NCBI GenBank assembly: GCA_946803715.1
Contig: CAMPET010000197.1
Coordinates: 1,935 to 31,686 of the forward strand
Direction: 5' to 3'
DNA from: Beroe ovata
Lineage: Eukaryota > Ctenophora > Nuda > Beroida > Beroidae
DNA: 29,752 nt
The notes under the pieces are model-generated. The model searched no databases and was not told the origin of the DNA. It worked only from the letters and a program-made list of their open reading frames with translations. Shown piece by piece: positions 1,272 through 29,349 of this stretch; position 1 is the stretch's first letter; each line of letters starts with the position of its first letter. A program made the translations under genes and the position numbers.

Positions 1272-2126
1272 CTATATCCCGAGCTAGCACAACCCCTGCA
1301 AATTTAGCAAGTAATGTGTGACCATATCACGTAAGAGAGTGCTATTATGATAGACAGTTGAAAACTTCACCTGCAGTAGTCCCCATGAATCGATCAGTAA
1401 ATTGTCACTGCTTTTGCCTAACAACGCCCTGTTAGATCTACAGGCACTATCCCGTGACCAGAAGTGTCCTCCACCGCATTATATTAGAGTTGGGATGTGT
1501 GCGAATTCCATATTTAAGCTAAACTTGTGGTAGCAGGACTATCAATCTAATGACAAATCCTGTCAATCCTGTTGAACTGGTTTCGCTACCTTCCGAGCTT
1601 TGATGGAACTTGTTCCAGGAACAGCCTAGAATATCAGATGACTGGTTTGACCAGTAAACTGTGAAATGGCAATAATACAACTGATAATGAGTTAAATACA
1701 TCAGCAATGCCCTGCAATTTGCTCAATGCTCATGGTGGCAGGTAAACAGGTTTGGAACATGATCAAAATGGTTTGATAGTGGAAACCAGGGTACTTGAAC
1801 TAGAGTCGGATGACTTCTTTACCTGAAACTATAATGCTCTGTCTTGTGTGTATTGAGAAAGTGTGGTTAGCAATGTGCCCATTAGGAAGAACATTCCATC
1901 ATGCAATTGTCACACTACAGACTAACGACATTGCATTTCCTACACTACATAATATGCCTACCTTTCTGCACACTGCACAATGAGTCATACAGACATATAT
2001 CCCCTGACGAAACATCCCTAGTCCCTACTCATGCCCCTTACCGGCTTACCCTATACACTTACCCCTTACCCTATTATACTCATAGTTTTTACTATTCAGG
2101 ATAACCCCACCCATTTCACTCTACAG
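1272..2126. other. intergenic, no gene seen
   Basis: No convincing exon on either strand. Near its end, 2041-2126 is pyrimidine-rich and finishes with CTCTACAG, a good splice acceptor six bases before the ATG of the UNC93-like gene. A 5' non-coding exon of that gene may therefore lie here. Confidence 0.5.
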
Positions 2127-2132
2127 GGCACA

Positions 2133-4001: not shown

Positions 4002-7000
4002 CTGGTGAGCTGATGCTCGCTTCGGTAACTGTTGAAAGTGGGATGAGTAAGGAAGTCTGACGTTCTCTCGAATGAAGTTCGCAGAATTCCACCATCACGT
4101 GGCTTGAGCTGCTGCCACAGGTTTGTCTGAGGAATAGTGTTAGACAGACACGAATAGGAATGGTGAGTGATGAACATTGGATAACCATTCAGTTATCATG
4201 GAGAGGTTGTATTGCTATGTATGAAGATAGATCAGCACAAAAAGAATGGATTATAGGGCTCATGATATCGGGCTCTTCCAATTTCCATTGGCCTGCAGAA
4301 ATGGTGTGTGAAGGGGGGATCTCTCGGTAACTTGGTAATGACAAATAGGACGAGTAGTGTTACTTGTAACGAACATTTCAATAAAACGAAGCGTTGATCT
4401 GTTGTAATATTTCAATTCATCTGTCATGAATCATAATCATACATCTGAGGATATTGGTTTAATGATAACATAAATAAAACATCAATCTCCATTCTCCATT
4501 TCGTACGTTTTTTCCCAACATAGAATGCCGATTGCCGACCTTATTGAAAGCTGTGAATGTAGAGGGGGTGAGAGGGCAACATGGTCACGTTACAATATGG
4601 ACAAAAGTGATGCATTCTGCCACGTGCAACATTCAAAACTTGGCATCGAGCCATAACTTACCCAGTTTCCGTTATCCTCTGACTGAACGATTCATAAAAT
4701 GAATAATAACATGTACAACCTTCTCATGATAAAGTTAGGGCGAGAAGGAAGTGGTTTGTGTATTCTACTTACAACTGAGGGAGCACCAAGGACAAACAAC
4801 AAGTCATCCAGGTCCTCTGAAGTAACTGTTTCATCTAGAGAGATTCCAATCTGAGATAAACTTTGTTGAGTAGTCTTGATGAGTGACCTCAAGAAAGTAT
4901 CTACCTATATCGCTTCTGGACTAGCTCCTCAACTAGACTAGACTTACAGTTTGCTTGCTATTCACTAACCGTGCATGGTTCTTCATATTTCCTGATGTTG
5001 ATGTGCCGGATTTCAGCATTCAGTAGAGCGTCTTTGTAAGCTTGCTCCGATTTGATTTTTATCTTCAGAGTATCGAAGAATGCTCCCTCCTCAATATGAT
5101 GTCCTGCCCTGCGTGCTCCTACGGCAGCAGAAATAACCTTATATTGTCCAATTCAATTCGATTATGCATTTTTACAGCACATTAAATCGTACTATAATAT
5201 CAGTATTCAGTGTACATAACCACTGTTAGGTATACATAGGTATCACACTACGAAACTATAACATGAAAGAACAATTCAATAAAAAAAATTGCATACCCTC
5301 GGCCACGATTCGAGTAGAGTTGTGAACTTTCTCGGCGATAGACTGAAGTCCCTCAGCACCGTGGTACACTGCGTACATAGCAGCCATGTTCGCTAGCAGG
5401 GCCTTGGGAAGGAGAGAGGGATATTTTATTATTTAACTCATGAGGATGTCTCAAAAGATGAAATAATGAAATGCAGGGGTAACAGTAGCTTGCTTTCCAA
5501 TCGGTAAACAATATCCCACACCTGTGATGTAACAATATATTACAGCACTAACATTGTACTTCAAATCAGAAAGTGAATAGAACTTATAGCACCTACCTGT
5601 GCAGTGCAAATGTTGCTTGTTGCCTTGTTTCTCTTAATGTGTTGCTCTCTGGTTTGCAGAGTTAGTCTGAATGCCAAGCCATCATCAGCATCTTTTGTCA
5701 CACCAATAATTCTCCCTGGAAATTTATCATAATATTGCAAATTGGCGTTTATGAATAGTACATCATATATTCGGAATGTAATAAACAGGGTTCATACCAG
5801 GAATAGAGCGCTGAAGGGCCTTTTTGACACTAAAGAAGGCAGCATGGGGTCCTCCAAAACCAAGTGGCACTCCAAATCGTTGAGCACTACCAAAGGCAAT
5901 ATCAAAGCCATACTCTCCTGGTGGCTTGATCATGGCAAGAGCAAGAAGGTCAGTTGCGCATGCAGCAAGTGCCTGTATGAAACGAAGGACATGCATAACA
6001 TAAGCTTGAAATTTCGTAACTATGAACTAGTTCATTCACTTGTAAACAAGTTTGGGTTCATTGTTACATTACATTGTTGTCATGGGCTGCCTTGATGTAG
6101 TCTGTGTAATCTACTATTTTACCATCAGAGTTTGGGTATTGGAACAAAACACCACATAAGCCGGGAGTCTCATAGTCAAAGGTTTTGTAATCCCCAACCA
6201 CCACCTAATAAGCAAGATAAGTGTTAGATCATCGTATTAGTCAGCTAAATATTTTATAGGCATAACACATCACGTCTAAGTTACCTGCACCCCAAGATAT
6301 TTCGCCCTAGTTTCAGTAACAGCCAGTGTTTGGGGGAAAACTGATTTATCAACAAAGAATATTGGGGTGCATTTCTTCTTTTTCTGGTTCCTGAAGGGAA
6401 AGACCAAGTTTGATAAGTATGCAACCAGAGGTTCAAGACATCAAATAACTAGATCAAAAACAAAACCTGTAACACATTGCCATTGCCTCTGCAGCAGCTG
6501 TTCCTTCATCAAGAAGACTGGCATTGGAAATTGGAAGTCCAGTCATATCACTAGTCATGGTCTGAAAGTTTATTAGACTTTCCATCCTCCCTTGGGATAT
6601 CTCTGCTTGATATGGAGTATAGCTTGTATACCTGACAAAAAGATGCATAGTGGCAGGAAAAAATAATTGATTTTTGTTATAGTTTACTGGAAAGGTAGGT
6701 TGAAATAGACATACCATCCAGGGTTTTCCAAGATGTTTCTGACAATTGGTGGAGGAACTTTGGAATCATAATAACCCATCCCAATATAGTTACGATACAA
6801 CTTGTTTTTGGAACCCAGTTTATTAACCCTTCTAGCCAACTCAAGTTCACTCATTGGGGCAGACAATTTCAAATCCTCTTCATCAAGAATATTCCTTGGA
6901 ACTGTTTGTCGAATAAGTTCATCAAGACTTTCAACACCTACAACATCAAGCATTTCTGATATCTCATGTTCATTTGGTCCAATGTGTCGTCTTGAGAAAT

Positions 7001-7139
7001 CTTCTATGATTGGGAGTGTGTCAGGATTCCCAGAGCTTAGTGAGTTGCTGATATTTTTTCTTTTGAAAGCAGACAGGTTGCTTATCTGTGATATAGGCTG
7101 GACCCATGAAGGCAGTTGCTTCAGGCTGATCCGCAACAT
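4002..7139 (-). CDS. GLDC: glycine decarboxylase (P-protein), N-terminal half, ten exons
   Basis: P-protein of the mitochondrial glycine cleavage system, which decarboxylates glycine using PLP and passes aminomethyl to lipoyl-H-protein. Exons (high to low): 7139-6715, 6631-6467, 6390-6285, 6204-6073, 5972-5798, 5715-5597, 5402-5297, 5118-4970, 4850-4773, 4126-4002. All have GT-AG borders and every phase matches, giving 526 residues. Start ATG 7139 opens a basic, hydroxylated presequence typical of mitochondrial import. Recognised blocks are [43 protein letters not shown]-like [31 protein letters not shown] and [10 protein letters not shown]. The last exon ends in phase 2 at a GTGATT donor. 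The C-terminal half, including the PLP lysine (HKTF region), is not found below 4000 in this window, so the gene is either truncated or has a long intron containing the UNC93-like gene. Confidence 0.95.
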
Positions 7140-7740
7140 CAGGCCTCTATAAATGCAATGATATAGATCATTAATATGGATATAGGCATGAGAGATCAAA
7201 AGAATGTCATTGTTGGACAAACAGCACCACATGAGAAGAGAGAACCTATTCATATTATGAGTACGACATGTCCGAAGTTAATTTTGCAATTATGTGCACG
7301 AAAAGGAAATCCCACCAAGAGAAGGAAACGATTTAATTGCTGAGGATAGAAAGAAATCTTGAAATTACAAAATTGGTCATTCGACCTTGCTTATTATTTT
7401 TGAACTGTGCCCTACCTACATGTGAGTTTGAGTATATACTATTTACATATTATAATTCGACCCATTGATGTTTCAAAAGAATCTCTTTTTTTCTGAAATA
7501 TATCTTTTCATGAAGTATAATTCGGCCCACGTTGATAATTCACCTGATATATTTCCTATGATATAAATACATTTGACATTGATCATGTTAAGTTATAAAA
7601 CGTGCTGCTTATGCATAGCGTCGGCCTTGCCGGATGCTATACTTATCTGTCCACTGTTTTTTGCGCGCGAAAAACAGGTCCCGGTCGGATCGCAGGTATT
7701 ATAATTCAGGTAACATTCGAACTTGCAAACATCTGACGCA
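7140..7740. other. GLDC upstream region
   Basis: AT-rich DNA upstream of the GLDC start, presumably holding its promoter and 5' UTR. No TATA box or other element can be assigned with confidence and no other exon is visible. Confidence 0.4.
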
Positions 7741-8215
7741 CGAGAGGGCTTGTCTGGCGATGCTTGACCGTTGACATGATGCAAGCCGCGAAGCGGCTTG
7801 CGTCAGCTGTCTGAGAATGAGTTTGAGCCGCGCTTGGCTGTCGATGATAGCCCCTGTCGAGAATTTCATTGCGCGCGCGCCGCAAATTATTCTCATTGCG
7901 CGCAAATTATTCTTATTGCGCGCAAATTATTCTCATTGCGCGCGCGCGCCGCAAATTATTCTCGCTGGCGCTCGCCGCTACGCGGCTCGCGTCAGCTGGG
8001 CCTAGCATCGCCAGGCAAAGCCGCGCGCGCGCAAAACGAAATTATCGACAGGGTCTATTATCGATCGACAAGAGAGGGCATGGGCACATGCGGGAAAAGG
8101 TGCACAGATTAATAACAATTGCGGTGTGTTGCCAGTTGTCTGGCGATGCTAGACCGCTGATGCAAGCCGCGCAAAACGAAATTCTCGACAGGGTCTATCA
8201 TCGATCGACAATGTT
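7740..8215. repeat. nested copies of a CG-rich dispersed repeat
   Basis: Several direct and inverted pieces of one repeat. Core landmarks are TCTGGCGATGCT, GCAAGCCGCGAAGCGGCTTG (a palindrome) and CTCGACAGGGTCTATCATCG. One copy begins near 7756 and ends in an inverted CTGTCGAGAATT piece near 7868; an inverted CCTAGCATCGCCAGG piece lies at about 8003-8017; a partial direct copy runs about 8025-8072; a shortened copy lies at 8135-8211, lacking about 33 internal bases. A related full copy lies at 27971-28080. Non-coding; it looks like a short non-autonomous element family, class unknown. Confidence 0.75.
7881..7964. repeat. 20-bp tandem repeat inside the CG-rich cluster
   Basis: Three exact-length units of CGCAAATTATTCTCATTGCG (the second with TCTTATT) at 7881, 7901 and 7921, plus a fourth after a (GC)n run at about 7950. 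It probably arose by slippage within the surrounding repeat cluster. Confidence 0.85.
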
Positions 8216-9396: not shown

Positions 9397-11323
9397 TCAG
9401 GCATAGTAGTTTGGTGAGACGAGCAAATCTTGTAGGATGACAAGCTGGTCCTCTGTGAAGTGAAGCTTGTGCTCCTCCCAACTGTCCAGATGCGTGCGTT
9501 TGAAGTTGCACATGCACAATGCAATGCAGTTCTGAGAGGGAGAGATGAGTGATATATACTGTGAAATGAAACCATCAGAAAAAGGAAAAACTGTTAGAAT
9601 TACGCCGCATTGCCGCAATGCAGCTCTGGAAGAAAGGTTCATTGATCTATAATAATGAAACTATAATTCCATCAGAAAAAGAGAAAAGGACGCATCCGCC
9701 ATCTCTACTTACCGCAATCATAACATTTCCACGAGTATACTCGGCGAGGAATACGATGATTTCTGGTAACCAGTCTGGAATCGAGTAGGGGAAGGACTCT
9801 ACAAGCGAACAGAGAGTTTTTATAGCCCCGTGGCGTATCCAGATCTCTTTGATGTCTGAAGGGGAGGTTTCATGACGCATTAGCTCACTAGCTCAGGGAC
9901 GTAGAATTCAGAATTGACACAATAGTTTGGAGTTTCAATTTGATTTGATTTCCTGTCATCGCTCGCCCGTCGTTCATGATCCGTACTACAGTGACTTTAA
10001 CACAGCATTGTCGATAAGTCGAGAAATCAGGTACATGAAGATTGAAGATCACGTGAAGATTTGCCCTCAATATTGATTATTGAGCTCTCAATATTGAGCC
10101 CTTAATATTGGGCAGAAATTGTAGTGGAAATTTGTAATTGATTTTTAACTTAAGTCTGTCCAGAAGAGCCCCCAGATTGCCCCAATTTAACACACGGTGC
10201 CTCGAAACCATTTGAGGACTTTTTGATCCAAAGCGTTTGCAAGGTGTTCATTCAATGTTATAGCAGCTTAAACTTCAATTCTGCACACGGTTGCAAGTGC
10301 AGAAAACATAAATTTTTACTAATTGAGCTCTTGATGATTTAAACATTTGTTTATTTTCAGCTATAATCCTAACACTGTTTAGCCCCAACACACCACAACA
10401 TACCCCCTTTCATTTACAGATATAGTCAAAACACCCCGCTAACACCCCAACAACAAACATCATATTACCAGTCTGACTCTTCTTGGTGCCGGGTGGTAGG
10501 GGAGTTCTTGCCATGCCCTTTATCTGTCCCAGTATCTCTGTGACGTTGTCAAACAGTGACGTGATCATGAGACCACCTATTGTCTGTCCCGCAACTTGTC
10601 GTACCTGTTACAGTTATTATAGTTGCTATAGTTTTTCCCAGTTTTTATAGTTATTGATTGATTATTTGAGTTGAGAGTTTGAGGTGGTGGAATTCGATCA
10701 GCCTGCTCAAGGATTGTGTGATTCAACTCATTGACGAGTAGAGTAGGGGGGAGCATGAAGCCATGAACCATGGGAGATAGGCTGGTGTATTCTTACCTCA
10801 ACTTGTGGTGACTCCAGACACTCAAAGAGAAGCTGTTTGATTTCCTCAACCAATTGTGGCTGTTCCCTCAGTTTATAAACATTGCAAAACGACATAACCT
10901 GTGGAATCATAATAAGTTCAATATATCTTAGTCTGAACATCAACCTACCTAGATACAACGCTCTAACAGAATGAAATGCCCATCTCATCTCTGTGGCGAT
11001 CCCAAGAAATGGAACAAATGCCAACTTGGGAGAGGGTCGATCGATCACACACCTGAAGATAGACCAGTGCGGTGCACTTTGCCTTCCACGAGCAACCAAT
11101 AGTACGCTCTTCACTTGTACTGTTGACGACCTGTAGCATAGGTCATGTGCTCAAACTGGGCGAGAAAAAGAGTCGAAATTGGACAAGTCACGCCCCTCAA
11201 ATCTATTTCTTTCGTTACCTTCTTGACGGCATCTATTGCTGGGCTGAGAGACGAATCTGGAAGAATTTCCCTTGACAGGAAAAATAGCCCTTTCGTGCAG
11301 AGCATCTTCAAATCCGGATCAAC
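9397..11323 (-). CDS. PSME4: proteasome activator PA200, C-terminal exons
   Basis: PA200/Blm10 is a HEAT-repeat ring that caps the 20S proteasome and opens its gate with its C-terminal HbYX-type tail. Six exons on the minus strand, high to low: 11323-11219, 11130-11053, 10898-10797, 10604-10469, 9855-9713, 9531-9397. All borders are GT-AG and all phases match, giving 199 residues. Matches to the vertebrate C-terminus include SWKA...YLQ, VEVRQVAGQTI, IRHGAIKTLC, PYSIPDWLPEI, FKRTHLDSWEEHK, FTEDQL and LLVSPNYYA at the very end; the tail ends YYA as in human PSME4. The larger N-terminal part (about 1600 residues in animals) is not found upstream within the window. Confidence 0.93.
9864..10460 (-). 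other. PSME4 intron, with AATATT palindromes
   Basis: The long intron between the fourth and fifth PSME4 exons listed. At about 10065-10114 it contains three linked palindromes built on CTCAATATTGAG. No exon-like sequence seen inside. Confidence 0.6.
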
Positions 11324-11738
11324 CTGTATTTGGAGGGGTTAATATCGCGTTCATTTCATGATAGAGCATCATGTCTCGATATCTAACTACAATACAATGG
11401 GCCATCGAGGGTCTATAATGTAGGGTACAATAATTCGGGATCAGCTCAATTCCAAGTGATGGTTATAGCCGTCGAATATCTGCTTGTTATTGTTTGAAAC
11501 GTGTAAGAGATAGAGTTCGTTATATAATGTATGCGAAGCCCCATGAAACAACGGCGATCCTTTCAACTTTGGAGATTCAGCAACTTTGAGGAAACTTTGA
11601 GGAAACTTTGAGGAAACCGTGCTGCACTTGTGACTCGTTTTCAGCTTTTCCAGCATTTTACATGTATGATAGTATGGATAGCCATACGCTCAGTATATTT
11701 CAACTCACATCCTCACACATAAGCACTGATTACACACT

Positions 11739-13349: not shown

Positions 13350-13983
13350 GCCCAGAGAAATAGAAATATCAAACTGTACCTGAGATAAATCGTAATTCTT
13401 TTCATTATCATCGACAGAGTGCTGACGTTCATGTCACCTCATAAATTTCATATATGACCCGTATCCGATGATACCGTTTCATATTTCTATATATAGATAC
13501 CATATTTCATATTGGGCACAGAAAAACAGTGATATTTTTCCCAAAACCAAATAGGATTTGGTTGTTTCTGTTCGCGGCATCTAGCGTTCTTTATTCTAAA
13601 CTCTATGATATGAAAAAGAACGCGGCATATTTGACAGACTGCCGCCACATCACTAGAAAAAGCTGCAGTGTTTCTACACGTGATGTGGCGGCAGTCTGTC
13701 AAATATGCCGCGTTCTTTTTCATATCATAGAGTTTAGAATAAAGAACGCTAGATGCCGCGAACAGAAACAACCAAATCCTATTTGGTTTTGGGAAAAATA
13801 TCACTGTTTTTCTGTGCCCAATATGAAATATGGTATCTATATATAGAAATATGAAACGGTATCATCGGATACGGGTCATATATGAAATTTATGAGGTGAC
13901 ATGAACGTCAGCACTCTGTCGATGATAATGAAAAGAATTACGATTTATCTCAGGTACAGTTTGATATTTCTATTTCTCTGGGC
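13350..13983. repeat. perfect long palindrome, two 304-bp arms
   Basis: Left arm 13350-13653 and right arm 13680-13983 are reverse complements over their whole length as far as I can compare, including two identical 40-50 residue translations on opposite strands. The 26-base spacer (13654-13679) itself has a short TAGAAA/TTTCTA pair. The base just before the left arm is an N. It could be a foldback/MITE-type element or an assembly or amplification artefact. Neither arm resembles a gene. Confidence 0.95.
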
Positions 13984-15892: not shown

Positions 15893-18800
15893 TTATAATG
15901 GAACATCAGCTCGTCTTGCGAAGGCAGTAACCAACCAAATGGCCATCAATCTGTAAAGAGGAATTCCGTTTTGCTCCCATTCATTGTGATTCCAAGACCT
16001 TATGAAACATTCAGCATTGATCAAACTGAACACCCCACAGTCAAAACCATTCCGCTGCCGTTGAGACCCGCCATTTACAAATTGGAAATCTCTTACCCGA
16101 ATATTGCGAGATGTCCAATGCACTGTATCGCTGTAGTTGTTTCTCACATGTGACCTGAACTTGTTGATGAACTCTATGAGGAAACCACACCGCTCAGCTA
16201 AGATTCGCTTAGATGATCCGCTTCCTGAGTCAAACATAGTCACTGATTTCTGCCCCTCACGTTGGTCAAGGATGAGCAGATACCAGTGACCCTCTGCGTT
16301 GTCATTGCAGAAGTTCATGATGACGTCACTGGACAAAGGATCACCTGCAAAGTTGATAGCATTACCCACAGTGTGAATATAATCGTCTGGCATAGACTCT
16401 GAGTATTGTCGCTCAGTGTGAGTACTAGTGATGTAGTCAGTGATGTACGTGCGTGGGCTGTGTTTGAAGAGAAAACGTGCATATGGAGAGATGAAGTGAA
16501 CTGATGGAGCTGATGCAATAGATGATGAGAGGTCTCTAAGATACATTCCATAGATGTTCATGAGGTCACTGCTGAGCCATTTTTGCCTGGTGTGATTGGC
16601 TATGCCAAATGGATCCGGCTGCAGCTCAATAGCAATGCGTCTTGAGAGAGCATCAGACTGGCGATCACAGAATGGGATAATTGATGTGTGATAGGTGTTG
16701 ATCATTGATTCTTGTGTCATGTGTTGAAGTATGGTGGTACTGCTTGAACATGATGATGCAAGACGAATGATTTCATGAATACTCTGTGATACATCAACTG
16801 GAATATGAATGAATGTTTCTGGTATGCCTGTCTTTCTCCTCTTGGTTTCAAGAATTGGTACGTTCTCGTCTGGAACCTTGACGGGCTTAGATAGGGGTGC
16901 AGGCTTCGTTGTTGTAGTTCCCGGTTTATCCTTATTAGACTTAGGTTTTCTCACTGTACTGGAAATATTAGTATCAATTGTAGTTTTAGCCTTTTTCCTA
17001 CTACTGCTTATATACCAAACACGCTCAGGAGTGAGGGAGAATGATTTTAACTCCTTAGTATTCAACTTACTTGCGGTAACCCTATCCTTTCGCGATATTC
17101 CTGACTTACTTCCTAACCTAACGTATTCCTCCAACGAAGCTGTGCTAACAAGAATCTTTTTAGGATTAAAGTTGATGAGATGAACACCCTCCAGACTTGA
17201 CACTCGGCTGAGTGCAACGTAAGTCTGACTGTTCGCAAAAATACACTGCCCCAAATCGATCAATGCACGTGATAAGGTTAGCCCCTGGGACTTGTGAATT
17301 GTCATTGCATAGGATAAGCACAAAGGAAATTGCTCTCTGTGAAGGAATGCACCCGGAAAGATCTGAATCTTCCTCTTTACAGGTTTTATAATAACTGACT
17401 CTTCCTTCTTATCAAACAATACTTTGATACCTGTTATGATGTTGGTACTTTCGTCCCGTTCGAAACCATCCATGATACCCACCGCCCCATTTACCAGACC
17501 ATTGGCAGTGTCAATGTTCGATCTCAACATTACCCTGACACCATGGGCGATTGGTATCTTCTTCTCCAGTCCAGCAGTGTTCCGGGGATCGTCCAGCTTA
17601 TCTAGCCTCTGCACAGCCTGTTCTGCAGCCTTGAGGTTCCTCTTGTTCCTGCAGTCGATGCTATCTCGTGCAAGGACTTCCTCAAAGTGCGGGTGTGCTG
17701 CCTTGATAGCTGCCTCGTTGAAACGATCCACCATCTCACGTGTTGGCAGGAGACAAACTAAGTTATCGCCGGTTTCAGAAAGTTCATTGAAATGCTTAAT
17801 GAGAAATGCAAGTTTTTCATCAGGAGACTGGGCAGATCTAGGAATTTTAATACAACGATCATTAAGGGTTTTGATGTCCTCAATATTGTGAGTTCCAGTT
17901 CTCACTCGGTAAAGGAGCAACTTCCAATATGAATTTGCATCTCCGGTCTGCCGCTGGTTGATGTTGAGCTCATCAAACTGGAGCTCTAACCAAAGATTAA
18001 GTGAGATTTTATTGCCATCAGTTATTTTATGCATCATATTTGCAGAAATTTCCTTATAAGGAGACTGTGCTTGGACCGGGTCCAGCTGCAAAAGGTCGCC
18101 AAACAATATAACTGATTTGTTTCCGAATGGTGCCTTCTTACCAAATAACTCACAGAGACGCAAATGGATCAACAGAAGAATAACATTACTTACCATACTT
18201 ACTTCATCCACAACGATAAGCTGAAGATCTTGTAGTACAACTCTTGTTTGGTCTAATGTCTTCTTGTTGAGAGGTTCATATTTTGGATGGCTGCCATGCT
18301 CGACAGGCAAGTTGAAAGCTGAATGAAGGGTTTGCCCTCTTATGTTATCAGCAGCGAGTCCAGTTGGTGCCCCAAGAATGTTATCACATGGACGGTTATA
18401 AACATTTCGCTGGACATACATGAAACCTACTAATGCTTTAATCAAATACGATTTCCCTGTCCCTCCAAACCCACTAACATACATTAATAATGGCTTGTAA
18501 CCATCACATTTACACTTTTCATCAATATGATCCAACGAGTGTAACAAATTATTGGTAACCCTTTCATAAATTCTGCGCTGATCAACATTCAAAGTATCAA
18601 CAAAATTTCTCAGTTCTTCCTCAGTCTTGATATCACTGTTCTTCTTGAGATTCTCAAAATCCTGCAATGCCTGAGCTATGACAGGGTCATCATCCTCCAT
18701 ATGATCAGCTAGGGGGTCTTCCTCCTTTCTATCATCCTCTCCTTCTTTCTGATCAGCCTTCTCTTCCATATCTTCTCTCATTCGCTTGATGGTCGATCTC

Positions 18801-21800
18801 CTTTCATATTTTTTCTTCATCTCTGGGAGCTCATTTAGAAGTCTGAAAAATTCCTCTTTGTATGACTCACTCGGACCTATGATATCAGTCTCCTTGCGCC
18901 ACGGCTTGTAGAGGCACAGGTAACTGTAGTAGAATGACTCGGCATTTTTCTTAGCATCAAACTCATAGTGTTGAATGATAGGAAGTTTTGTTCCCACACT
19001 TCTCTTCTTGAGCCGGGCAATTGTCTTAGATCCATGTTCATCTTTGATTTCGATGACCAAATGAGAAGGGATCTTCTTGTCATAAGTTCGTTCGTAAGTT
19101 TTGACATAGTCATGTAAAGACATCTCTTCAAATGCAGGGTTGCTAGGTCTTCTAGGGTAAAAATCGTGAATGAAATCAGGTGTGAAAATGTTTGTATCAT
19201 CGCCATCCTGTTTCTCTAGCTCTTCAACTTTCTTGAGGCACCTTGTTCTGTATCTAGGAAATGTTGTTGGGACGAAGATGAACTTTTCACTGATCACATA
19301 CAGCTCCCCATTGTTTTGAAGCATTCTATCGATGGCTTCATGAGTAGACATTTCCCTGTTCCTGAGGCATTCATAGGCGAACTTTGAAGTATTCTGAAAA
19401 GCTGACTTGGTGTCATCCGAAACAAAGGATTCAATGTGACTCTTTTCACCTTTCGTTACATATTTGGTCACATACTCAACTATTGAAAAAGAATCTTCAG
19501 AGAGGAATTGTATGTCCATATTTCCTCCCCACAAATAGAGTAGATCAGGATTGTAGTCGTTAATGTTAGATTCTTCAGAAGTCCTCGGCAGATCATACAA
19601 TCTCTTCTTCAACTTATTCTTCCGACGACCAATGACACAGGATAAGACATCATGGAGCTGGAAAACCTGCGAATCCTTCCTGGGGAAACCAAAGCGGCAC
19701 ACTTTACTATACTTACCACCTGATCTTATGAGTCTCAAGCAATAATCTCGACATTTATGCCGCTGGTACTTGTCAACCATATCATAAAGTTCCGGTTCCT
19801 CATTCTTATCAGGCAGTTTACAGGAAGAGTACTTCTGGATGAAACTTGCCACATCTTTTGTAGAATCCTTCCCTATTACTGGTGCTCCTTCTACCCAGAA
19901 TAAACAATGAAAATGAGCAACCCCCCTGCCTTGATACTCAGTTCGGATAAAGTACTTTGTTACTTTACCAATTGGGTCAGCTTTCAGTATGAAGCTCAAT
20001 ATCGCTGCAAATCTCTTGTGAATGTAGTTCGACACTAAAACTGGATCTTTGGCAAGAACTTCGTTGTCTGATAGGTTCTCGATTCCAGGAAGATCTGTGT
20101 TCTGATCTCGCACATACTTCACCAGCTCTTCCCAGTCGTACTCTGCAGGGGAGAATGTGACGAACCAAGAAGCAGGACCACTTTCCTCACAAATTGCCTG
20201 GATTTTCTTCCTATTGAAGCTCCAATACTGGGGTGTTCCTGGAATATCTCTCACAGACCGTGACAATCTCTTCTGTAGATCTGGATCATTGTCTCTCAAC
20301 CTTTTCAGAAACTCTTTGGCACTGATATTTCCTAAACCTGCAACATTTCTCAATGATGCATACACTCCTTGTGTAATCTTTCTTCGCTCATATTCCTGAC
20401 TCAAGCTGAAAATATATGGGATATTCCTCCTGATGTTGCCATGTCTGGAGAGGAGTCGTGATCTCTCATACTGCAAGGGTCCGATTTTCCTTTGCCTCTC
20501 CTCTTTGGCATTTCTTCCACCCACTCCCCAGGGAAATACTTCAGGGAAACACATGACATCTAAATTCGGCTCCTGAAGAGAAATAGCTTCGTCATCAACT
20601 CGTAACAACTGGTACAGACTTTCTAGCCATTTATCATTGTCTTCAAAACCATCTAAGCAGGTCACTGTGTAATGGGTTATAAGATTCCGAAAGTCTTCTT
20701 CAGACATTTGTTCTAAAATCTTCTTCACCTTTTCTTTCTTATCCGACACCTCTGATCCAATGTCACTGTCTTCTGATCCTGGTTTGGTGTTTCCACCCCC
20801 ACAGAACGGCAAATTTCTGTTGAGCATGTCGCATATGTCTGCTTCTGAGATATCTGGAATCGCATTTTCACACATTACGTCATGAAGTGAGTGGTTGCTC
20901 TCATCAGAATTTTCATGAATTGCATTAATACAGGAGTCTAAGTCTTCATTTATAGAGCATAATACAGTTCTCTCAAGATCATCACACTCAGCTAATTTCA
21001 CATCTTTTAAAGGATGTGTTAAATGCGATAAACAATGGAAACATTTTCTATCATACCTTGATCTATGAAATTTATTTAAATTGTCAATCAGCAAGGAACG
21101 AAAAACTTCAATATCAATGTACTGGAGATTCACCCTTATTCCATGACGACCTTCGCATGTATACAGTTTACCCTTCAAAAAATTTTTATACACTGCTTTG
21201 ATATCGCCTATGTTATCATTATTCCTACATTCAACACAGCATAGGCGAGCTTTTTCGGCAAGATTCAGTATTCTTAAAATGTCCCCAATATATTTAACAT
21301 TTGATACTATTGTTTGCAAAGATTCATAAGATGGTGCACAAATATCCTCTATAGGTATTGAACCAAGCTTTCCTCGTGTGGACGCATTCTCGTTCTCATA
21401 TGAAATGTTTAATGTCTCATTGCCTTTCCGAGGCATTCTGATTGATGAACAGTCAGTACTAACATTTTTTGAAACTTGAATTATGCCTGGATCAATGGGA
21501 CATAATTCATCATGACATTTCACGCATTTATTTGTGATGCCGTTTTCACCGTACACCTCTGCCACGGTTCTGTATACAGAAACATTCCTAGAACATTTTT
21601 GGTCCTTCAAAATTCTGCCATGAAGTTTTTTCAAGAATTTAGATGCAGAGACTTTCTCACTGGCAGAAATCGCAACACATTGTTGGTCACTGTTTTTATG
21701 ACATTTCTTGCAAAGAAACCCGTTACTTCTTAGATTGTCTATCATTTTTAAGTATTCGAGTTGATTGGTCTGAAGTTGTGCTCTTTTTTCTCGAGTTGCT

Positions 21801-24800
21801 GTCAAAACAGTCGATCTTTTTTTTGCGAGTTGTGACCTTTTAAAGGAATTCCTCTTATAAGATTTAACACCATCAACTAAACACCAACTACAACAAGACT
21901 TCGATCGAGCCTGATAAGATCTTTTCAGTCTCAAAACGACTCTAGCAGTGTTAGATATGTCTATTGACTTAAAGTTTATTAGTGCATGCCAATTACCAAG
22001 TTTCCGTGAGGCCCTAGTTCTAAAATTTCTCATTTGACTATCACACTGTCCACAAAGAGTACCACTAACAGTAAGTTCCCGTGCATAGTTCAACATTATC
22101 TGCAAGAGAGCAAACTTCAGTCTGTCTGAAGGGAGTTCGATTCTAGAAATCCTTTCCAAATCATGATCACTGAGAACCGCTGTTATATCGCTTTTATCAA
22201 TACTACAGCACAAATCATAGTTACTTCCACCCGATAACTGCCGATTTCTGGTACTCTGAGTTCCTTCGAGTGATAACTCTGACATAAGTTTTTCTAGTTC
22301 TGAAATGTCAAACTGATCACTATCAGCTAATTCTCCACAATAAGTTCTGTCTAACTCTGATAAAAAGAGATTGTCTGCCGGGGACACGAGGTCGTCGGTT
22401 GCCATAGAACAAGATGAGGGTGATGATGCTGAACTATGCAAAATCTTTTCATCCTGTGATACTGTATCGGCTATACTTGGAGTTTGTGAAATGGTGTTTG
22501 TGCTGAGTGACACTAAATCGTCTGTACTATAATCTGAACCTCGCCCATATGCCTGGGGCGAATCATCATGATATTTGTCAGGGCTGTCAGTGTCATGATC
22601 AGGGGGAAGTAAATCATCCTGGTTTTCAGGGATGACAACATCTTTATAAAGAGGGTTATTGGCTTTCAGCCAAACTAATGCAACATGAATTTTGTTTACA
22701 GAAACTAAACGCTGCCAAACTGCCCTATCCTTCTTAGGGATACCGTGCAGCACAATAAACTCGTCAGGGTTAACAAGTCTAGTGGGCCTATCACCGAATA
22801 ACTCCTTTATGGAGTTGTCAAGTGGGGACATGATGTGAACAGCAAACCCTTTCAGCTTATCCATACGTACACTGTAGGGTAAATTAGCTCCTACCGCAGA
22901 AACTTTAAAGATACTCTGGTAACACATAGCAGTATGTATGAATATCCTTTCAAAATCGTTCAAACGCTTAATACAATCGGGGAGTATCCCAGTATCCATG
23001 CCATTTATTTTAGATATTGTGGGCACCCTATTCTTACCCAATTCCCCAGAGCATGCACTGCAAATTTTCAAGCCAATCAGAGTGTTAACTGGTGCCTCAC
23101 CCCTCACAATTACGCGTTCATGACAATTTAGATACCTGAACAAACTCTGCCATGCTGCGTTATCGAGATTTCTCCTCTTGGATGTGATTGTTTGGATATG
23201 AGCGTCGTCCACCAGCTTATCACAAGAGACACATGCTGTCTTAGGGAGATGTTCGTTACGTTTCTTATAATAATCTAACAATTTTTCACCGTATTTCTCT
23301 AAAAGAGTCTCAGAATTGACTATATAGTTAGGACGCTGAACATCAAATAACTTAGTTGGTTTATCAGGGGGTTGGTATGCTAGTAATTTGTAGAGGTACT
23401 CGAAGTCTCCACATGCAACTGCTGCATCAAAGTCAGCAATAATTTCATTCATATTTTTGAGATCATTTAGGTAAAAGTATAACTTCCTGAGGTTGTTGTA
23501 ATGTGGGTAAAGTCGCCTGAGAAGAACCAGCTTAGAAGTACACCCATTTACTCCGCTGAAACATTCGTAGGGGTGATTTCTTTTGTCAACGGGCAATAAA
23601 TACGGTTGACATTTGGCCGAAGGACAGTCATTAAGCTCATCCAAGAATGAACGGACATCTCTGCGAGTTATTCTTTTACCCTCTTCAAACAATTCCATCA
23701 TGGTTCCTACTTCATCTGAAGTAGCTGGGATGCAACTTTTCAGGCATGGACTGATGACATCACCTTCTTCAGGATCACAGTCGACATGAATATTCTTAGT
23801 CTTTTTTGTCTTGAAGGGATACTCCTTCACACCCCAACGATAACAGAACTCCGGGAAATACGGTTCCCAACCCTTTGCATGACAAGCATCTCCCATTGCT
23901 GCATTGGTTTTCTCCTCTTCAGCTGATACAGCAACCTTTGCACATATACCCCTACAATAGACATTCAAGCGGTGGACAGCAAAATAGACACACTGAACCC
24001 ATCGATCACGTCTTAAAAGAACATTGCGAACCATTGACCTAGCAAGGAAATTAACCTTGAACCTTATACCATAGGAAGTAGACAATTTTCTCTGTGAATA
24101 TTTTCTCATCAATTCATCAATATCTCCATATTTCCTCAATGCACTAGATAATATATCCTTAGCCCTAGTTTTGTACATGATTCTAGTTTTTGACTTCACG
24201 AATTTCTTATTTTTGAATAGAGTATTATACCTTTGATTATCGTTTCGGGACGGCAGTGAGGGAAGAAAGAGACGCTTCCTTGATTTCTTGATAACCTTCT
24301 CTGCATCCTTATATGCTCTAACAACGTACCCTGGAACCTGGGACGACAAATTAATGATTACTGATTGGAGATGATTTGATACAGCATCAAAGTAATTTAT
24401 AAAAGTGAATACTCATCTATTGAGACTAATTTTATCACAACTTACATCATGCGCTCTTATTACTTCCATAGCCTTCCTCTTCAAGAGTCTATGAGCTGAT
24501 TTCGCCTGTTGATTGTCACTGTTCTCATTCGGTATCCCCCTATCATCAGAATCCTTGCCAGACACTCTCACCTCCTCATCAACAGCTTTGTGAATTTTCG
24601 CCTTATTGACAACCTTCTTGTACCAAAATAAATTCTTCTTATATTTCTGTCTCCTCAATGTTGCCTTTCTTGATAGTTCATAGAACTCACGAGTCTTCTT
24701 TCCTTTTTCTGAACACCCATATTTCCGAACAGCGCGCCTGTATGCCTCCCGTCCTTTGCTCGACTCCATATACTTTTCCATCCCTTTCTTTTGCGCTTCA

Positions 24801-25629
24801 GACCAGCCCTCTGTACTCATGTACTGCCTCATAGCACGTTTCTGGGACTCCATGTACCTTTGTGTACCCTTGTATGAATCCATGGCACGTTTCTGGGACT
24901 CCATGTATCTTTGTGTACCCTTGTATGAATCCATGGCACGTTTAAGTGAGTCCTTGTACCCTTGTGTGGTCGCATACCTTTTCATAGCATGTTTATGTGC
25001 CTTAAGATATCTATCAGATTTCAAATATCCCAGTAACGCTTTTCTCTGAGCACAGTTTCCCTTCTCAGATTCTTGATATTTCACCATAGCATTCCTTTGG
25101 GACTTTTGTCCCTTCTCACTTTTTATATATCTTCTATTTGCTTCCTTCTTTCTTTCTGACCCTTTGTCACTTTCTCTGTACTTTTTGTTGCTCCTTGCAA
25201 CGCTTTCTTTACCAGAAGGACTTTTCCTCCATTTTGCCATATACTCTTTCCGTGACATAGCTGGGGTATTTACCACATCTGATCCTGGTTCAACAATGAT
25301 ATTACATGAATCATCTGCAAGAATGGCCCTGCTTGTTCTAGAGTTTTTCCCCATCTTTCGAGATGATTCTTCGCCCTTGCACCGTCTCTTCTTTGGAGTC
25401 TCTTCTTCAGTAACATCAGACACCTCCTTCCCTCCACCCCTCAGATCTATATGTACTTGAGTGTCAGCCTTATCATCTGCGGTTAACAGCAGTAGATCAT
25501 CCACACTTTTCTCCTCTTTGAGTACACAAGAATTCCATCTCCCTTTCCTTGCAGATCTACTTCTAGTCCAGCACAATTCTCTCTTGCTTTTCTTGTCCAT
25601 TATGATGGGTGCGTCGCCACCACAGTAAC
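15893..25629 (-). CDS. Helitron Rep-helicase protein with C-terminal Ulp1/C48 protease
   Basis: Two exons, 25629-24446 and 24337-15893, phase 0. Numbering the large exon from codon 24349: CxxC zinc knuckles lie at roughly 370-1110 (CVSC, CSAC, CGQC, CSWC, CKKC, CVKC, CVEC, CFHC). The Rep domain begins near 1394 (WFVTFSP), with HFH metal-binding histidines at 1479-1481 and the tyrosine pair Y1626/Y1630 (EYVTKYVTKGE) that cuts and joins ssDNA. The PIF1/SF1 helicase has Walker A GGTGKS (K1966), Walker B VDEVS (D2048/E2049), TIHKSQGLT and VALSRVSS. The C-terminus is a C48 protease with H2688 (GHWYLL), D2707 (FDSGSG), Q2765 and C2771 (GFDCGVF), so it should be active against SUMO/ubiquitin-like substrates. 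The upstream exon adds 17-residue basic repeats. If it is a separate gene from the SGNH-KH exons, ATG 25600 is the likely start (25675 is an alternative). Confidence 0.93.
24338..24445 (-). other. 108-base phase-0 intron of the Helitron gene
   Basis: Donor GAT|GTAAGT and acceptor CGTCCCAG|GTT are both near consensus. The two flanking frames are in the same register and separated only by one TGA (24413-24415), which lies inside the intron. Removing 108 bases joins ...RAHD to VPGYVV in frame. The intron is itself a multiple of three, so retention would give a truncated 5' protein. Confidence 0.85.
24650..25260 (-). repeat. about eleven 17-residue basic repeats coded in the Helitron 5' exon
   Basis: The protein repeats a pattern like KRAMDSYKGTQRYMESQ roughly eleven times; two adjacent units (about 24838-24939) are nearly identical at the DNA level (51-bp period), showing recent duplication. 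The repeat is rich in K/R with a Y-x2-(S/T)-x5-Q/K rhythm and should be helical and nucleic-acid binding. It resembles in style the short basic repeats (STPR-like) at the N-terminus of other animal Helitron proteins, but the period differs. Confidence 0.8.
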
Positions 25630-25725
25630 CTGTTGTGAGATTGCCATGAATGACTGCATGATATGAAAAGTACATTCTTCCTCATAAATTGATGTGCAAA
25701 CTATTTTCATTAAACTATGTCACTT

Positions 25726-27934
25726 TCAGTATTCATGTAACATTTCACTATTTTTCATGATCACAGCACCTGGATCGACTTTGCACTTTTTATTTTTCGA
25801 CTCTGAACTGCGACAAAGGCGTGGTTTCGGTCTTTTAGTCTTCTTCTCACACTTCAAATCTTTAACTGAACTCTCAACTCTCGTTTCATCTTTCAGTTTC
25901 TCTGCATACCTGAAAATATTCACACGGTTGATGTTCTTTCGGTTGCATCTCGCAATAAAAAGCAATGGCCAATGTGACTTAATAAACCAATCCCGCCTTA
26001 CCAATGAGCACTAGAAATGAAAGACGCACTCTCTGGATCATAAACCTGTCCACCCCTGATTGCATCACACAGATTTCTTGAATTAAGATTTCCTGAAAGT
26101 GAACATTAGTTCTACTACTAAAATCAATAGGCACTAATTTTGATCGAATACAGGCGCTAATCTTAATCGAATTTTTGTGTTGCCATGGTAATGAATGCAG
26201 ATAAACGTGGATGAAAATTATAGAGATAATTTAAATTAACATTAAATCAACACTAATTTGTCTAACCTTTGCTCTGTGTGCTGTTGGGTACATCTTCCCA
26301 ATTTCCAATCTCGCTTATTCCAGCTCCACTTCTTCCAGTTGACAGCTCCTCAGGACTCTTATAATCATTTCGCTTGCCTGTGGTAAATGGAAATTTCAAT
26401 TATTCGAGTGAAATGCAGGTGAATATCAGTGGAGCTTGCACCACATATCAGTCACAGCCCTGCAGGATTCGCTCAAAGAAGGCTTTCCAATTCCATGTCA
26501 TTATATAAGCCACCTATCTTAGTATACCTAGGTTGCTAATGATTTCTCTTAACAAAGTTGTTGCAGCAAGTACATCAGCTCCTTTTCCACTGATCAGAAA
26601 CTCTCTGTATTTCCCGCATTTGGCTGGTGCCAGGGTGACTGTTGCTCTTGTTTCGGCCATGATTTTCTTGACGTGGCGACCTCCCTGATATAACAATATC
26701 ATCACTCTCTCACTATCACTTATCATGAAATTCGAGTTACTTCGAGTTACTCCCATTGCTCTCCAAACTGACCTTTCCAATTACAGAGCCAACCATTGAT
26801 TCTTGCACGATCAAACGTCTCTGATCTGGTAAGCCACTCTTCCGTTTCTGACTGCCAATTGATCCTTTGCTCATAATTTGAGGAGACGACGTTATGTTGA
26901 TTTTCTCTCCTATCAAATAATTATCTATTAATTACAATGTATTGATTCCTCGTTGGGATATTATTCCCGCGAAATGTTATTACACTACTCGATTCTATAA
27001 TAGTATAATTGCACTGAGATGACCCATACGAAACAAAATATACGTTCTATTAGAGTACATATTCTTTTCAAAACATGTCACAACAAACCTGGATCAGGCA
27101 ACCCGGCTGACAAAACAGCAGAGAGATACAGCGGCTCCTTATCCGGAGCATCCATACTACTTTGATAGTGTACCCACCCTGAGTTTATGACCTTCTCTTT
27201 TAAATCACTTTCCTCAACCTCATAAAACTTGGGATTGGGTTTTGTAAAGTAATATCCAGGGTGCTGCCCCCAAGACACATGCTCCATTATCTTTCTTTTG
27301 ATTAAAAAGCTCGACTTAGCATTCGGGTGCAGTCCATCCCTTTTATAAAATCGTTTTTCAACATTTCCATTAGCATCCAAGAAGTCACCATACAACCTGA
27401 TGACTCTACCAGGGAACTCCTTGTGGAGGTAACTGTTCAGAATGATAGCATGATCATTAGGATGTTTGGTTGATCCTACATCTCTTGTCCACTCCCTGCG
27501 AGGAAGGATCTCACATATGTGGATCCTCGAGACTGGATTAATGTCCTGTAGTAAGCACATTAACCCATGTATATCAGTAACAGTTTCATCCTCATCAGTG
27601 ATCCCTAAATCGTTCGCCCCAACGACGACCACTACGTGATCCCAAACACCCTCGTATTCTTCACGATTACTTCTCACCTGAATCATACAAATTGTGTTAC
27701 AATTACATACGCTTAACGTTTTGATGCATCAGCAAACCGGTCCTCATTACAATAATCAGATCAGCTTTTGTGACCATCGGTATCAAAACTTTTAATTTCA
27801 TTTACCATTATCCGACCAATAACCATTACCTTCTGTATCAATTGATGGGTATTGATACCCGGGTAGGTATACGTTCTCCCACGGCCACATGAAAATTGTA
27901 CATCCCGGGTTATAGAGTCACCCACAATCAACAA
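25726..27934 (-). CDS. SGNH/GDSL hydrolase plus KH domain exons, N-terminal part of the Helitron gene or a separate gene
   Basis: Seven exons, high to low: 27934-27830, 27677-27089, 26909-26773, 26684-26528, 26377-26267, 26092-26002, 25909-25770 (or to the stop at 25726). Every GT-AG junction is phase-consistent. Residues 5-9 are GDSIT (nucleophile S7), 55-58 GAND (oxyanion N57) and 149-154 DGLHPN (D149, H152): a complete SGNH hydrolase, likely an esterase or deacylase. Residues about 262-330 form a KH domain with the VIGK|GGRHVKK loop, interrupted by an intron between K277 and G278. After it come NWEDVP and DAIRGGQVYDPESA, then a lysine-rich tail. The last exon either splices (CCAG|GTGCTG, a weak donor) to CAACAG|GTTACTG at 25629, in frame with the Helitron protein, or reads to a stop at 25726. 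No ATG precedes residue 1 in the first exon, so a 5' exon is missing. Confidence 0.8.
26518..26860 (-). other. KH domain coding exons
   Basis: The upstream exon gives RRLIVQESMVGSVIGK and the next gives GGRHVKKIMAETRATVTL...FLISGKGADVLAATTLLREII. This is a type I KH fold with an invariant GxxG loop (GKGG). KH domains bind short single-stranded RNA or DNA. In the Helitron context this could help handle the ssDNA intermediate or the element's own RNA, though that role is inference. Confidence 0.85.
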
Positions 27935-27970: not shown

Positions 27971-28082
27971 GTTGTCTGGCGATGCTAGACCGCTGATGCA
28001 AGCTGCGAAGCGGCTTGCGTGAGTTTGAGCCGCGCGCGCGCAAAACAAAATTCTCGACAGGGTCTATCATCGATCGACAATT
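27971..28082. repeat. second full copy of the CG-rich dispersed repeat
   Basis: Matches the cluster at 7740-8215: GTTGTCTGGCGATGCTAGAC, GCGAAGCGGCTTGCG, (GC)n, then CTCGACAGGGTCTATCATCG. It sits only 37 bases upstream of the first SGNH exon acceptor, between that exon and MAEA exon 1. Confidence 0.85.
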
Positions 28083-28418
28083 TAACTTTAAGCGGATATG
28101 GTATTGGTAAGTGGGAACGACAGCGCGCGATTTGCGTCCAGTTGTGTACAATACCGATCGATTTGAAAGATTGTGTGTAGTTGTACAGTGTAGGTGCTGG
28201 TGTGTGTGTGTGTGTGTGTGTGTNGCGGAGTCTGTTGAAACATTTCTGAGCATAACCTCCCTCTTTGGTCAGGCAATCTGCATACTGGGGGGAGGGCAAA
28301 TTTCGTTTTGAAATCTGTCCCAGATTGGCAAAATATAATGCAGTATTTCAGGAGAAGTCTGATTTCAGTAACAATCACATGATTCCCTCGCAACAAACAC
28401 AGAATCCCCCCACCCTAC
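28083..28418. other. intron or intergenic DNA with GT microsatellite and an N
   Basis: Contains a (GT)n tract at about 28199-28223 followed by an ambiguous base at 28224. No convincing first exon for the SGNH gene was found on the minus strand here; an in-frame ATG at about 28253 reads through the microsatellite and is not protein-like. Confidence 0.5.
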
Positions 28419-28640
28419 CCTGTTCCTGAAGTTCTTTAGTTTCTCGAGGAAAGAAACCATGGCCTGTCTCTGCAACTCCTGAGTCGGCAGCCTCGCGATG
28501 TGAGTTATCTGAGTGTTGAGTTGCGCAATCTCGCGGTCAATGATCTTCTGTGCCTGTCTGAACTTCTTGTTGAGTACCTCGTAGGGGACTTTCACTGATG
28601 TATACTCGAGTGACGCGACCTCCGAGGCTTTGTTCGACAT
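28419..28640 (-). CDS. MAEA: E3 ubiquitin ligase subunit MAEA, first coding exon
   Basis: MAEA (yeast Gid9) is a RING-type subunit of the CTLH/GID ubiquitin ligase. The exon runs from ATG 28640 (MSNKASEV) to 28419, then GTAGGG (phase 0), coding 74 residues. LEYTSVKVPYEVLNKKFR, AQKIIDRE and LEKLKNFRNR match the N-terminal coiled coil of animal MAEA in order and spacing. An upstream in-frame ATG at 28727 adds 29 unconserved residues. The LisH, CTLH and RING-like parts are not found anywhere downstream in the window, so only exon 1 is present here. Confidence 0.85.
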
Positions 28641-28727
28641 AGTAGACTGACTGTGAGGTTGGGTAGTCAGGAAGGTCCGCGAAGGAGCTTGAATATCGGG
28701 AAATCTGATGAAATTGACAATAGACAT

Positions 28728-29349
28728 GCATGATATTATATGCTATGATATGTGATAGGGACATTAATCAATGAAATGGAATCGTAAAATAGAATCACAA
28801 TGTTTGTGTATAACATGGCATACAAACCATGTATAGAGAGTACAAACAACAGAATGCTAGGTACATAGTTATTCTGTGGACAATTGCGCTATGATTTATC
28901 AAACCACTGGAAACAACCATCGTTTTTTCAACATGTTCGAACAATTAACATGGATCTTTTGGATCACGGAGCGCATATGGCGGAGCGCATATAACAGTGT
29001 ATCGCGCGTTCCGTCTACCAAATATTGATTTGGCGGAGCGCTAATTAGTTCTTTGTGAGTGTGTGCCCTGCGTGTATTTGTTATGTAATATTGATACGCG
29101 TGTGTAACAACATACGTACATTGTTGATGTGCGTGTGTAATTTCACTGTACACTATCTTCATACACTCGATATTTTCAGGAACGCCCAGGGAAAAATTTC
29201 CGGAGCCCCGGAAATAGTGGTTAGAATAATTTTTGTCCGTTTGAGATTTCGATTAAAGTCAGGGACCATCTGAGTAAAACTACAATGTCTATAAAGCTTA
29301 AGAATCTCTGCACAGATTTTCTCTAGAAGCACAAATTCAGTCACAATTT
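28728..29349. other. intergenic, no gene seen
   Basis: No supported exon. At about 28965-29035 three CGGAGCGC motifs occur (two of them CGGAGCGCATAT), and a loose GTGTGC-rich tract follows. It may contain the MAEA promoter. Confidence 0.5.

Follow-up and report, generated by a model that had tools for sequence, protein, structure and literature searches.

Does the SGNH hydrolase encoded upstream of a Helitron in the ctenophore Beroe ovata belong to the transposon's own gene, and what would it do there beside a KH domain and a C-terminal Ulp1 protease? The question arises from a contig stretch of 29,752 nt (the window), where the original prediction joined nine minus-strand exons with GT-AG borders and matching phases into a single gene. 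Re-splicing confirms the join: the exons yield 10,959 nt and 3652 open codons whose sole stop is terminal, and all eight introns are GT-AG with compatible phases throughout. Exon 1 as read (27830..27934; this and all following features on the minus strand) carries SGNH block I (GDSIT) and no start codon, and exon 2 (27089..27677) the remainder of the hydrolase (GAND, RDGLHP). Exon 3 (26773..26909) encodes a linker and the start of the KH domain, exon 4 (26528..26684) the remainder of KH, and exons 5 (26267..26377), 6 (26002..26092) and 7 (25770..25909) further linker. Exon 8 (24446..25629) contributes the h-x-GG motif termed site a and then basic repeats, which include a 51-nt tandem array (24830-24967). 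Exon 9 with the stop (15893..24337) encodes a Cys-rich region with DUF6570, Rep, PIF1 and Ulp1.

Pfam matches and motifs agree with the predicted domain order SGNH-KH-Rep-PIF1-Ulp1. The Lipase_GDSL_2 match (3.3e-4, 21.6 bits) lies under its cut-off of 32.9; the SGNH region matches 2hsj at 2.8e-5, with GDSIT at residue 5, GAND at 55 and RDGLHP at 148, and the Ser, Gly, Asn and His blocks (GDSIT, YPGI, GAND, DGLHP) are present in every aligned copy that spans them. The KH region matches KH_1 (5.7e-11) and Nova-1 (5.7e-12), and its profile match together with a GXXG loop (GKGG at residue 276) marks it as type I. DUF6570 (22625..23035, 3.9e-14) precedes Rep, where the Helitron_like_N match (19901..20296, 4.5e-24) reaches as far as the HUH motif HFHCLFW at residue 2313; the two-tyrosine motif YVTKYVTK at residue 2460 lies beyond the profile match. 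The PIF1-like helicase (17885..18496, 5.5e-22; GGTGKS at residue 2796) shares one ORF with Rep. The Ulp1 protease (Peptidase_C48, 15983..16582, 9.6e-12) has GHWY at residue 3521, FDSG at 3540 and FDCGVF at 3603, forming the His-Asp-Gln-Cys set of C48 proteases, and its structure model has a predicted CE-clan SENP/Ulp1 fold nearest to SENP1/2. An HUH Rep with two tyrosines, a fused PIF1-like helicase and dispersed multiple copies characterize the element as a Helitron. The AP endonuclease (PF03372) by which Helentrons are recognized is absent from exon 9 in a Pfam search at E<=1. The predicted zinc knuckles likewise gave no Pfam match at E<=1; the visible feature is Cys pairs only.

Chance does not explain the exon join, since further copies repeat its exons, phases and domain order. 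Ten Rep loci of the window's family lie on ten contigs of the same assembly, with Rep 61-100% identical. Other copies sharing the domain order were sought in this genome and found at all ten: exon 2 is matched 5' of every Rep, with SGNH on the same strand at a distance of 6.3-8.0 kb, except at one locus where it is 12.0 kb, and KH is upstream on the same strand in 10/10. The copy C174, whose Rep is 61% identical, also has SGNH and KH upstream. Family copies without SGNH-KH, named beforehand as the observation that would overturn the prediction, were sought among the ten loci and not found. The other long-ORF Rep loci C407, C513 and C8, with Rep 23-30% identical to the window's, are different Helitrons; SGNH matches are absent at the Rep loci C407 and C513. 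At C8, an SGNH fragment is seen 1 kb upstream of Rep.

A host SGNH-KH gene might have been carried along without use to the element, and a host-gene fragment that we take to be MAEA-like does lie nearby, across an N. Helitrons are known to capture genes (PMC6431247). Such passenger status is nevertheless highly improbable in view of the presence of SGNH-KH at all ten family Rep loci (including C174), an SGNH dN/dS of ~0.1 and the frame shared with Rep.

The reading frame itself provides the closer evidence. Exon-length remainders are identical over exons 1-8 of the window, C213, C464 and C494, and over exons 2-8 of C453 and C103. All six spliced copies are free of internal stops, agree in phase and keep the exon 8|9 junction, and exon 4 measures 157 nt in each of the six models. 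Exon lengths change by multiples of three in 19/19 cases, intron lengths in 14/36. C224, a more diverged copy, likewise splices into a single frame. The exon-7 donor and the exon-8 acceptor needed no phase-guided choice in C213, C464, C453 and the window; in C494 and C103 the expected phase guided the choice of both. The SGNH-matching copies C305, C446, C48, C8, C349, C460, C29 and the weak C86 were left unspliced, and C25, C176, C61, C110 and C174 were examined as alignments or ORFs only. Estimates of dN/dS (NG86, ten copy pairs; window pairs excluded, with dS >0.8 or saturated) are 0.09-0.16 for SGNH, 0.10-0.31 for KH, 0.21-0.62 for exons 5-7 and 0.18-0.41 for exon 8; exon 3 is weakly constrained (0.27-0.90). 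By this measure purifying selection acts on SGNH and KH. Agreeing phases, the lack of stops, exon changes in threes and purifying selection point to a conserved frame from SGNH-KH to Rep, and on these sequence grounds we hold with strong confidence that it is one reading frame. It is also very likely that SGNH and KH serve the element.

Two genes could be read from the same locus, namely an SGNH-KH protein ending by intron retention at the stop at 25726 and a Rep-PIF1-Ulp1 protein starting in exon 8. In fish, texim has several exons and is treated as a gene of its own, lying 5' of the Helitron (PMC4021074); read-through of the window's exon-7 donor does meet a stop (frame 26010-25729), and exon 8 has an early Met at codon 10 in the window and codon 9 in C103. 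However, five of seven models (C213, C464, C494, C453, C224) lack a Met in exon 8 until codon 100-170, downstream of the conserved site a, so translation must enter exon 8 from upstream. Phases into exon 8 are preserved in the tested copies, and exons 5-7 are constrained at the values given above. We consider the division into two genes unlikely; one-protein and two-message forms could both be produced through alternative splicing.

Exon 1 of the window copy has no Met, and no initiator exon was found for it. C460 shares the exon 1 acceptor, and there a short Met-containing exon with a GT donor precedes it on the 5' side. The ATG at 28640 belongs to the 5' fragment of a host gene (28228..28745; exon 1, intron 1 and part of exon 2) beyond the assembly N at 28224, 95% identical over 518 nt to a gene at C121. 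This is the presumably MAEA-like fragment mentioned above; further exons we take to be PSME4-like, and both resemblances make an animal genome likely; a COX1 search of the assembly gave no match. The phase of the MAEA-like exon from 28640 would allow splicing to exon 1, but this exon was dismissed as the element's start, being a truncated duplicate beyond the N that occurs at one other place in the assembly. Helitrons end in 5'-TC and in 3'-CTRR with a hairpin, and insert between A and T. No 5' terminus of the element was found, and assembly Ns lie at 13349 and 28224; in a DNA search of the assembly, the window's 3' flank is unique except for a foldback repeat. The sole sharp boundary seen is that of the similarity between C176 and C25, which ends in AAATG without CTRR. 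A domesticated host gene might present such long open frames under purifying selection, with termini not found, but the many copies across different contigs, several of them truncated, make domestication scarcely credible. The SGNH-KH region appears as an integral, constrained part of the transposase reading frame and not a passenger.

Selection extends to copies without the transposase core. C25 and C176 lost Rep and the helicase through one shared deletion and yet remain constrained: the derivative retains an SGNH-KH-DUF6570-Ulp1 gene under selection, which suggests that these modules might act in trans.

We favour, by a modest degree of confidence, a single spliced Helitron gene encoding SGNH-KH-linker-basic repeats-DUF6570-Rep-PIF1-Ulp1 that processes its own product. 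Rep would nick and PIF1 unwind, as in other Helitrons; SGNH would de-esterify some substrate; and the type I KH domain would bind the element's single-stranded DNA (or RNA), in the role thought to be that of RPA in plant Helitrons. We give binding of single-stranded DNA by KH an even chance. Ulp1 would cut after Gly-Gly like viral diglycine-cutting proteases, releasing SGNH-KH from the Rep-helicase, and perhaps also strip SUMO, NEDD8 or ubiquitin off host or element proteins. The putative cleavage sites are site a (LRGG, residues 506-509, 25433..25444), which separates SGNH-KH from the remaining modules; site b (LSGG, residues 1539-1542, 22226..22237); and site c (FCGG, residues 2016-2019, 20795..20806), directly before Rep.

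The presence of h-x-GG, which resembles the tail of ubiquitin, at module boundaries suggests that the C-terminal Ulp1 cuts a polyprotein. Site a is the best-conserved six-column stretch among the 12 copies aligned there and occurs in 12/13 copies with sequence at this place, the window included, the copies having been gathered with the motif pattern (11/13 fetched matched; C460 has no homology there, and C174 lacks the site by the pattern used). Among the 24 nearest relatives, which are not independent, h-x-GG occurs <=130 aa before Rep in 18, with a P4 and P6 preference; P4 is hydrophobic in 20/23 GG runs of this region, against a background of 0.24. The 68 other relatives, a pool of OTU/VTD/USP/AP-endonuclease Helitrons and relatives lacking a listed protease, have hydrophobic-x-GG before Rep in 1/12 GG runs. 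Ten of the 24 list no Ulp1, and nine of these ten alignments end at 3484-3501, before the catalytic residues; an intron would cause such ends. Raw counts of LxGG versus GGxL over whole relatives proved confounded by LWGGN and LTGG inside Rep and helicase, and were replaced with region-bound counts. Over the whole pre-Rep region, the motif is in modest excess over its reverse in the Ulp1 group (22 vs 13), and counts 16 vs 3 in the ten near relatives without a listed Ulp1 and 38 vs 22 in those other relatives for which no protease is listed. OTU (1 vs 3) and USP (5 vs 5) Helitrons have no excess. These region-bound counts partly disfavour processing at h-x-GG.

Alternatively, the motifs are mere flexible linkers and Ulp1 acts solely on host SUMO, NEDD8 and ubiquitin conjugates, so that transposition proteins escape degradation, a role already suggested for the VTD deubiquitinases of Helitrons. 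The model's nearness to SENP1/2, which are SUMO proteases, would fit this role, as does the reactivity of zebrafish Helitron VTD domains with ubiquitin in vitro, and of two of three with NEDD8 (PMC9741609). The motif may also be inherited, site c of the window is FCGG, C174 lacks site a, and OTU and USP Helitrons show no surplus. On the other side stand the motif before Rep in most near relatives, with its position preferences, and the conservation of site a in an otherwise fast-evolving linker. We assign the linker reading a nearly even chance. Cleavage by Ulp1 at the h-x-GG sites is, from the sequence pattern, a tentative proposal with chances somewhat below even, and the fuller scheme, a Helitron polyprotein matured by its own Ulp1 at L/I/V-x-G-G with the modules of Rep-less derivatives acting in trans, is possible but rather doubtful. 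If true, a eukaryotic rolling-circle transposon uses a viral strategy of diglycine cutting, and the ubiquitin-like protease of this Helitron clade is a processing enzyme. Precursor processing offers a concrete, testable reason for a ubiquitin-type protease in a Helitron.

The Mnemiopsis leidyi proteins P0011, P0013 and P0019 resemble the window's in having Rep, PIF1 and a C-terminal Ulp1, with 47-49% identity in the Rep region. DUF6570 is common to P0019 and the window protein, and h-x-GG before Rep also occurs in Mnemiopsis Ulp1-Helitron proteins. SGNH-KH matches are absent from these three gene models, and P0019 starts with a different N-terminus. KH or GDSL domains are listed for 0/92 Rep matches in a protein search with 4000 candidates scored, in records that often lack small 5' exons. 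The viral CE-clan polyprotein proteases include ASFV pS273R and poxvirus I7; in comparison with these, cleavage by the window's Ulp1 is only predicted. Helentrons and Helitrons with OTU, VTD, USP or AP-endonuclease domains share RepHel and a ubiquitin-type protease (PMC9741609, PMC6431247), but have another protease class or an endonuclease, and KH and GDSL are not listed among their domains. Kaonashi Mutator elements and Ginger1 also have Ulp1 in a DNA transposon, but with other transposases and no Rep (PMC13317346, PMC2836005).

The claimed novelty of the domain combination is thus reduced: Ulp1 occurs in Mnemiopsis Helitron proteins, and fish offer a published case of SGNH beside a Helitron (PMC4021074). 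No literature linking 'Helitron' with 'KH domain' was found in the library searched, within which KH would be a new nucleic-acid-binding module of Helitrons beside RPA; the term is also absent from the text of PMC4021074. New points are the h-x-GG motifs at module boundaries and the continued constraint on Rep-less copies. In fish, texim is a separate SGNH gene 5' of a Helitron (PMC4021074; guppy, PMC7643365), either 3 kb from it or with the Helitron inside texim's last intron, and its capture in the fish lineage was inferred by the authors (PMC4021074). Searches for Texim-clade SGNH matched only the unnamed proteins P0001 and P0094-P0096. Texim-Helitron and the window family are alike in arrangement, with SGNH directly 5' of a Helitron in several copies. 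Fish texim is a separate gene with its own stop, whereas SGNH-KH of the window family appears to be in frame with Rep, and this position in the transposase frame bears on the question of whether texim is a sperm gene or a transposon helper.

The nine minus-strand exons at window positions 15893-27934 join as originally predicted: the eight introns have GT-AG borders, the phases agree, and the 3652 codons end in a single terminal stop. From N- to C-terminus, domain searches of the window protein return SGNH, KH, DUF6570, Helitron Rep, PIF1 and Ulp1. The Pfam match to SGNH is weak, yet every SGNH block is there. The wording "at least 3652" residues proved apt, as exon 1 opens inside the SGNH domain and no start was identified in the window. 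In C460, the contig whose copy is closest to window exon 1, a short Met-bearing exon precedes the same acceptor. The corresponding place in the window is occupied by a repeat and by a microsatellite, beyond which come an N (28224) and a truncated host-gene duplicate, so that the length is only a lower bound. The duplicate (28228-28745) is the 5' fragment of a gene that we take to be MAEA-like, and is 95% identical to the gene on contig C121, where the gene runs on. The fragment is phase-compatible with the SGNH exon, but across an N. CGCGCG-rich interspersed repeats at 7749-8211 and 27971-28080 are common to the window and C121.

Other features of the window include host genes, namely an UNC-93-like one (2022-3524), a glycine dehydrogenase exon (6684-7277; both from Pfam) and exons presumed to be PSME4-like (9650-11338), and a minisatellite of 18.8 copies of a 15-bp unit (689-969). 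A perfect foldback of 304 nt (13350-13983) adjoins an N (13349). Some 280 bp at its core form a high-copy inverted-repeat element with at least 87 matches, both strands taken together (among the best 40 of 194 candidates); the arms outside this core may have arisen in assembly.

The order from SGNH-KH to Ulp1 is a real, conserved architecture, and the element is a new Helitron variant. Profile searches of the 77.8 Mb assembly, where the window lies on contig C197, returned 18 Helitron_like_N matches. The window Rep region was compared by BLAST with one locus on each of 16 contigs: ten loci are 61-100% identical to it (C103, C110, C174, C197, C213, C224, C305, C446, C453 and C494), C407, C513 and C8 are 23-30% identical, and C2, C323 and C43 gave no match. 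All ten family loci, C174 included, carry KH, and all have SGNH 5' of Rep in the same orientation, at a distance of 6.3-8.0 kb in nine of them and of 12.0 kb in C305. Ulp1 was matched in nine of the ten, the C446 match covering the Ulp1 start only; the short C305 locus, probably cut by the contig end, has neither PIF1 nor Ulp1 among the matches listed. A second PIF1-Ulp1 copy at C224:24449-27049, preceded by an N and a GT run, is possibly a scaffold join. SGNH without a Rep match occurs in the assembly searches on C48, C349, C460 and C29, on C518 and C464, which both run to contig ends, and on C61, where similarity to the window protein stops at residue 956. An SGNH fragment at C8:2707-4589, 61% identical to that of the window, lies on the 5' side of an unrelated Helitron Rep, 1 kb away.

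When five copies are aligned between KH and the Rep ORF, the exons stand out as blocks among introns that do not align, and the stretch 5' of KH behaves likewise. The spliced models of C213, C464, C494, C453, C103 and the window have the same exon-length remainders and GT-AG borders and are stop-free to the end of exon 8; in C494 and C103 the expected phase guided the choice of two splice sites, a choice that none of the other models required. Length changes are divisible by three in 19 of 19 cases in exons vs 14 of 36 in introns. Two of the introns are missing from C224, which nevertheless splices into one frame, and the C518 model was traced as far as exon 6. The first Met of exon 8 comes only at codon 100-170 in five of seven models, and early at codon 10 in the window and codon 9 in C103. 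Across ten pairs of copies, dN/dS is 0.09-0.16 for SGNH, 0.10-0.31 for KH, 0.27-0.90 for exon 3, 0.21-0.62 for exons 5-7 and 0.18-0.41 for exon 8; for exon 9 it is 0.09-0.15 (three pairs). The bolder part of the account, which we infer, is putative processing of the polyprotein, with the Ulp1 domain cutting between modules. Neither the early Met of two copies nor the h-x-GG motif counts over the whole region before Rep shift the odds of these readings, whose margin of doubt already covered them.

Two elements, C25:262600-269960 (L059) and C176:122350-130310 (L058), lack Rep and helicase through a common deletion and keep SGNH-KH, DUF6570 and Ulp1. Their order is SGNH, KH, repeats and DUF6570, up to about residue 1971-1985, followed directly by Ulp1, and their 5' exons align, unspliced, to those of C61. 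The exon-9-like ORF of C176 (1616 codons, holding an N and a local duplication) contains DUF6570 and Peptidase_C48, with no Rep or PIF1 match at E<=0.01; the corresponding stretch of C25 is split into ORFs of 867 and 547 codons. The two align without gaps over the deletion junction and are 87-90% identical over most of their common part. Because the deletion is common to both, their divergence should mostly postdate the loss of Rep and helicase. Their SGNH ends are 76% identical and may have a different history. With dN/dS of 0.12 (795 codons), 0.33 (544 codons) and 0.23 (SGNH exon 2), SGNH-KH, DUF6570 and Ulp1 are under purifying selection in these elements. Our reading is that the modules have a use even where no Rep lies in cis, and can therefore act in trans. 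The 3' flank of both elements has conserved blocks with splice-like borders.

Outside the assembly, the protein search returned SGNH relatives (P0001 and P0094-P0096). P0095 runs into LCGVVIGK and P0096 into LCGVIIGN, the first part of KH, as if the domain were broken at the same intron. With an identity to the window of 36-51%, these relatives suggest that SGNH-KH reaches beyond the window-like copies of the family. The OSK domain of Oskar weakly matches P0001 (E 0.0053) and P0094 (E 0.0022).

Ulp1-bearing Helitron proteins, e.g. from Mnemiopsis, are already in databases. Our literature search, whose scope ended before older reviews in subscription journals, returned nothing joining Helitron with "KH domain" or with protease and self-cleavage, and passages from some of the papers that name both Helitron and Ulp1 describe no Ulp1 inside a Helitron. 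The known counterpart is fish texim, which is described as an SGNH gene 5' of Helitrons, a separate gene captured in fish (PMC4021074); a second report treats the texim-Helitron association in guppy (PMC7643365). The term "KH domain" is absent from the texim text (PMC4021074), whereas the present element has a KH domain.
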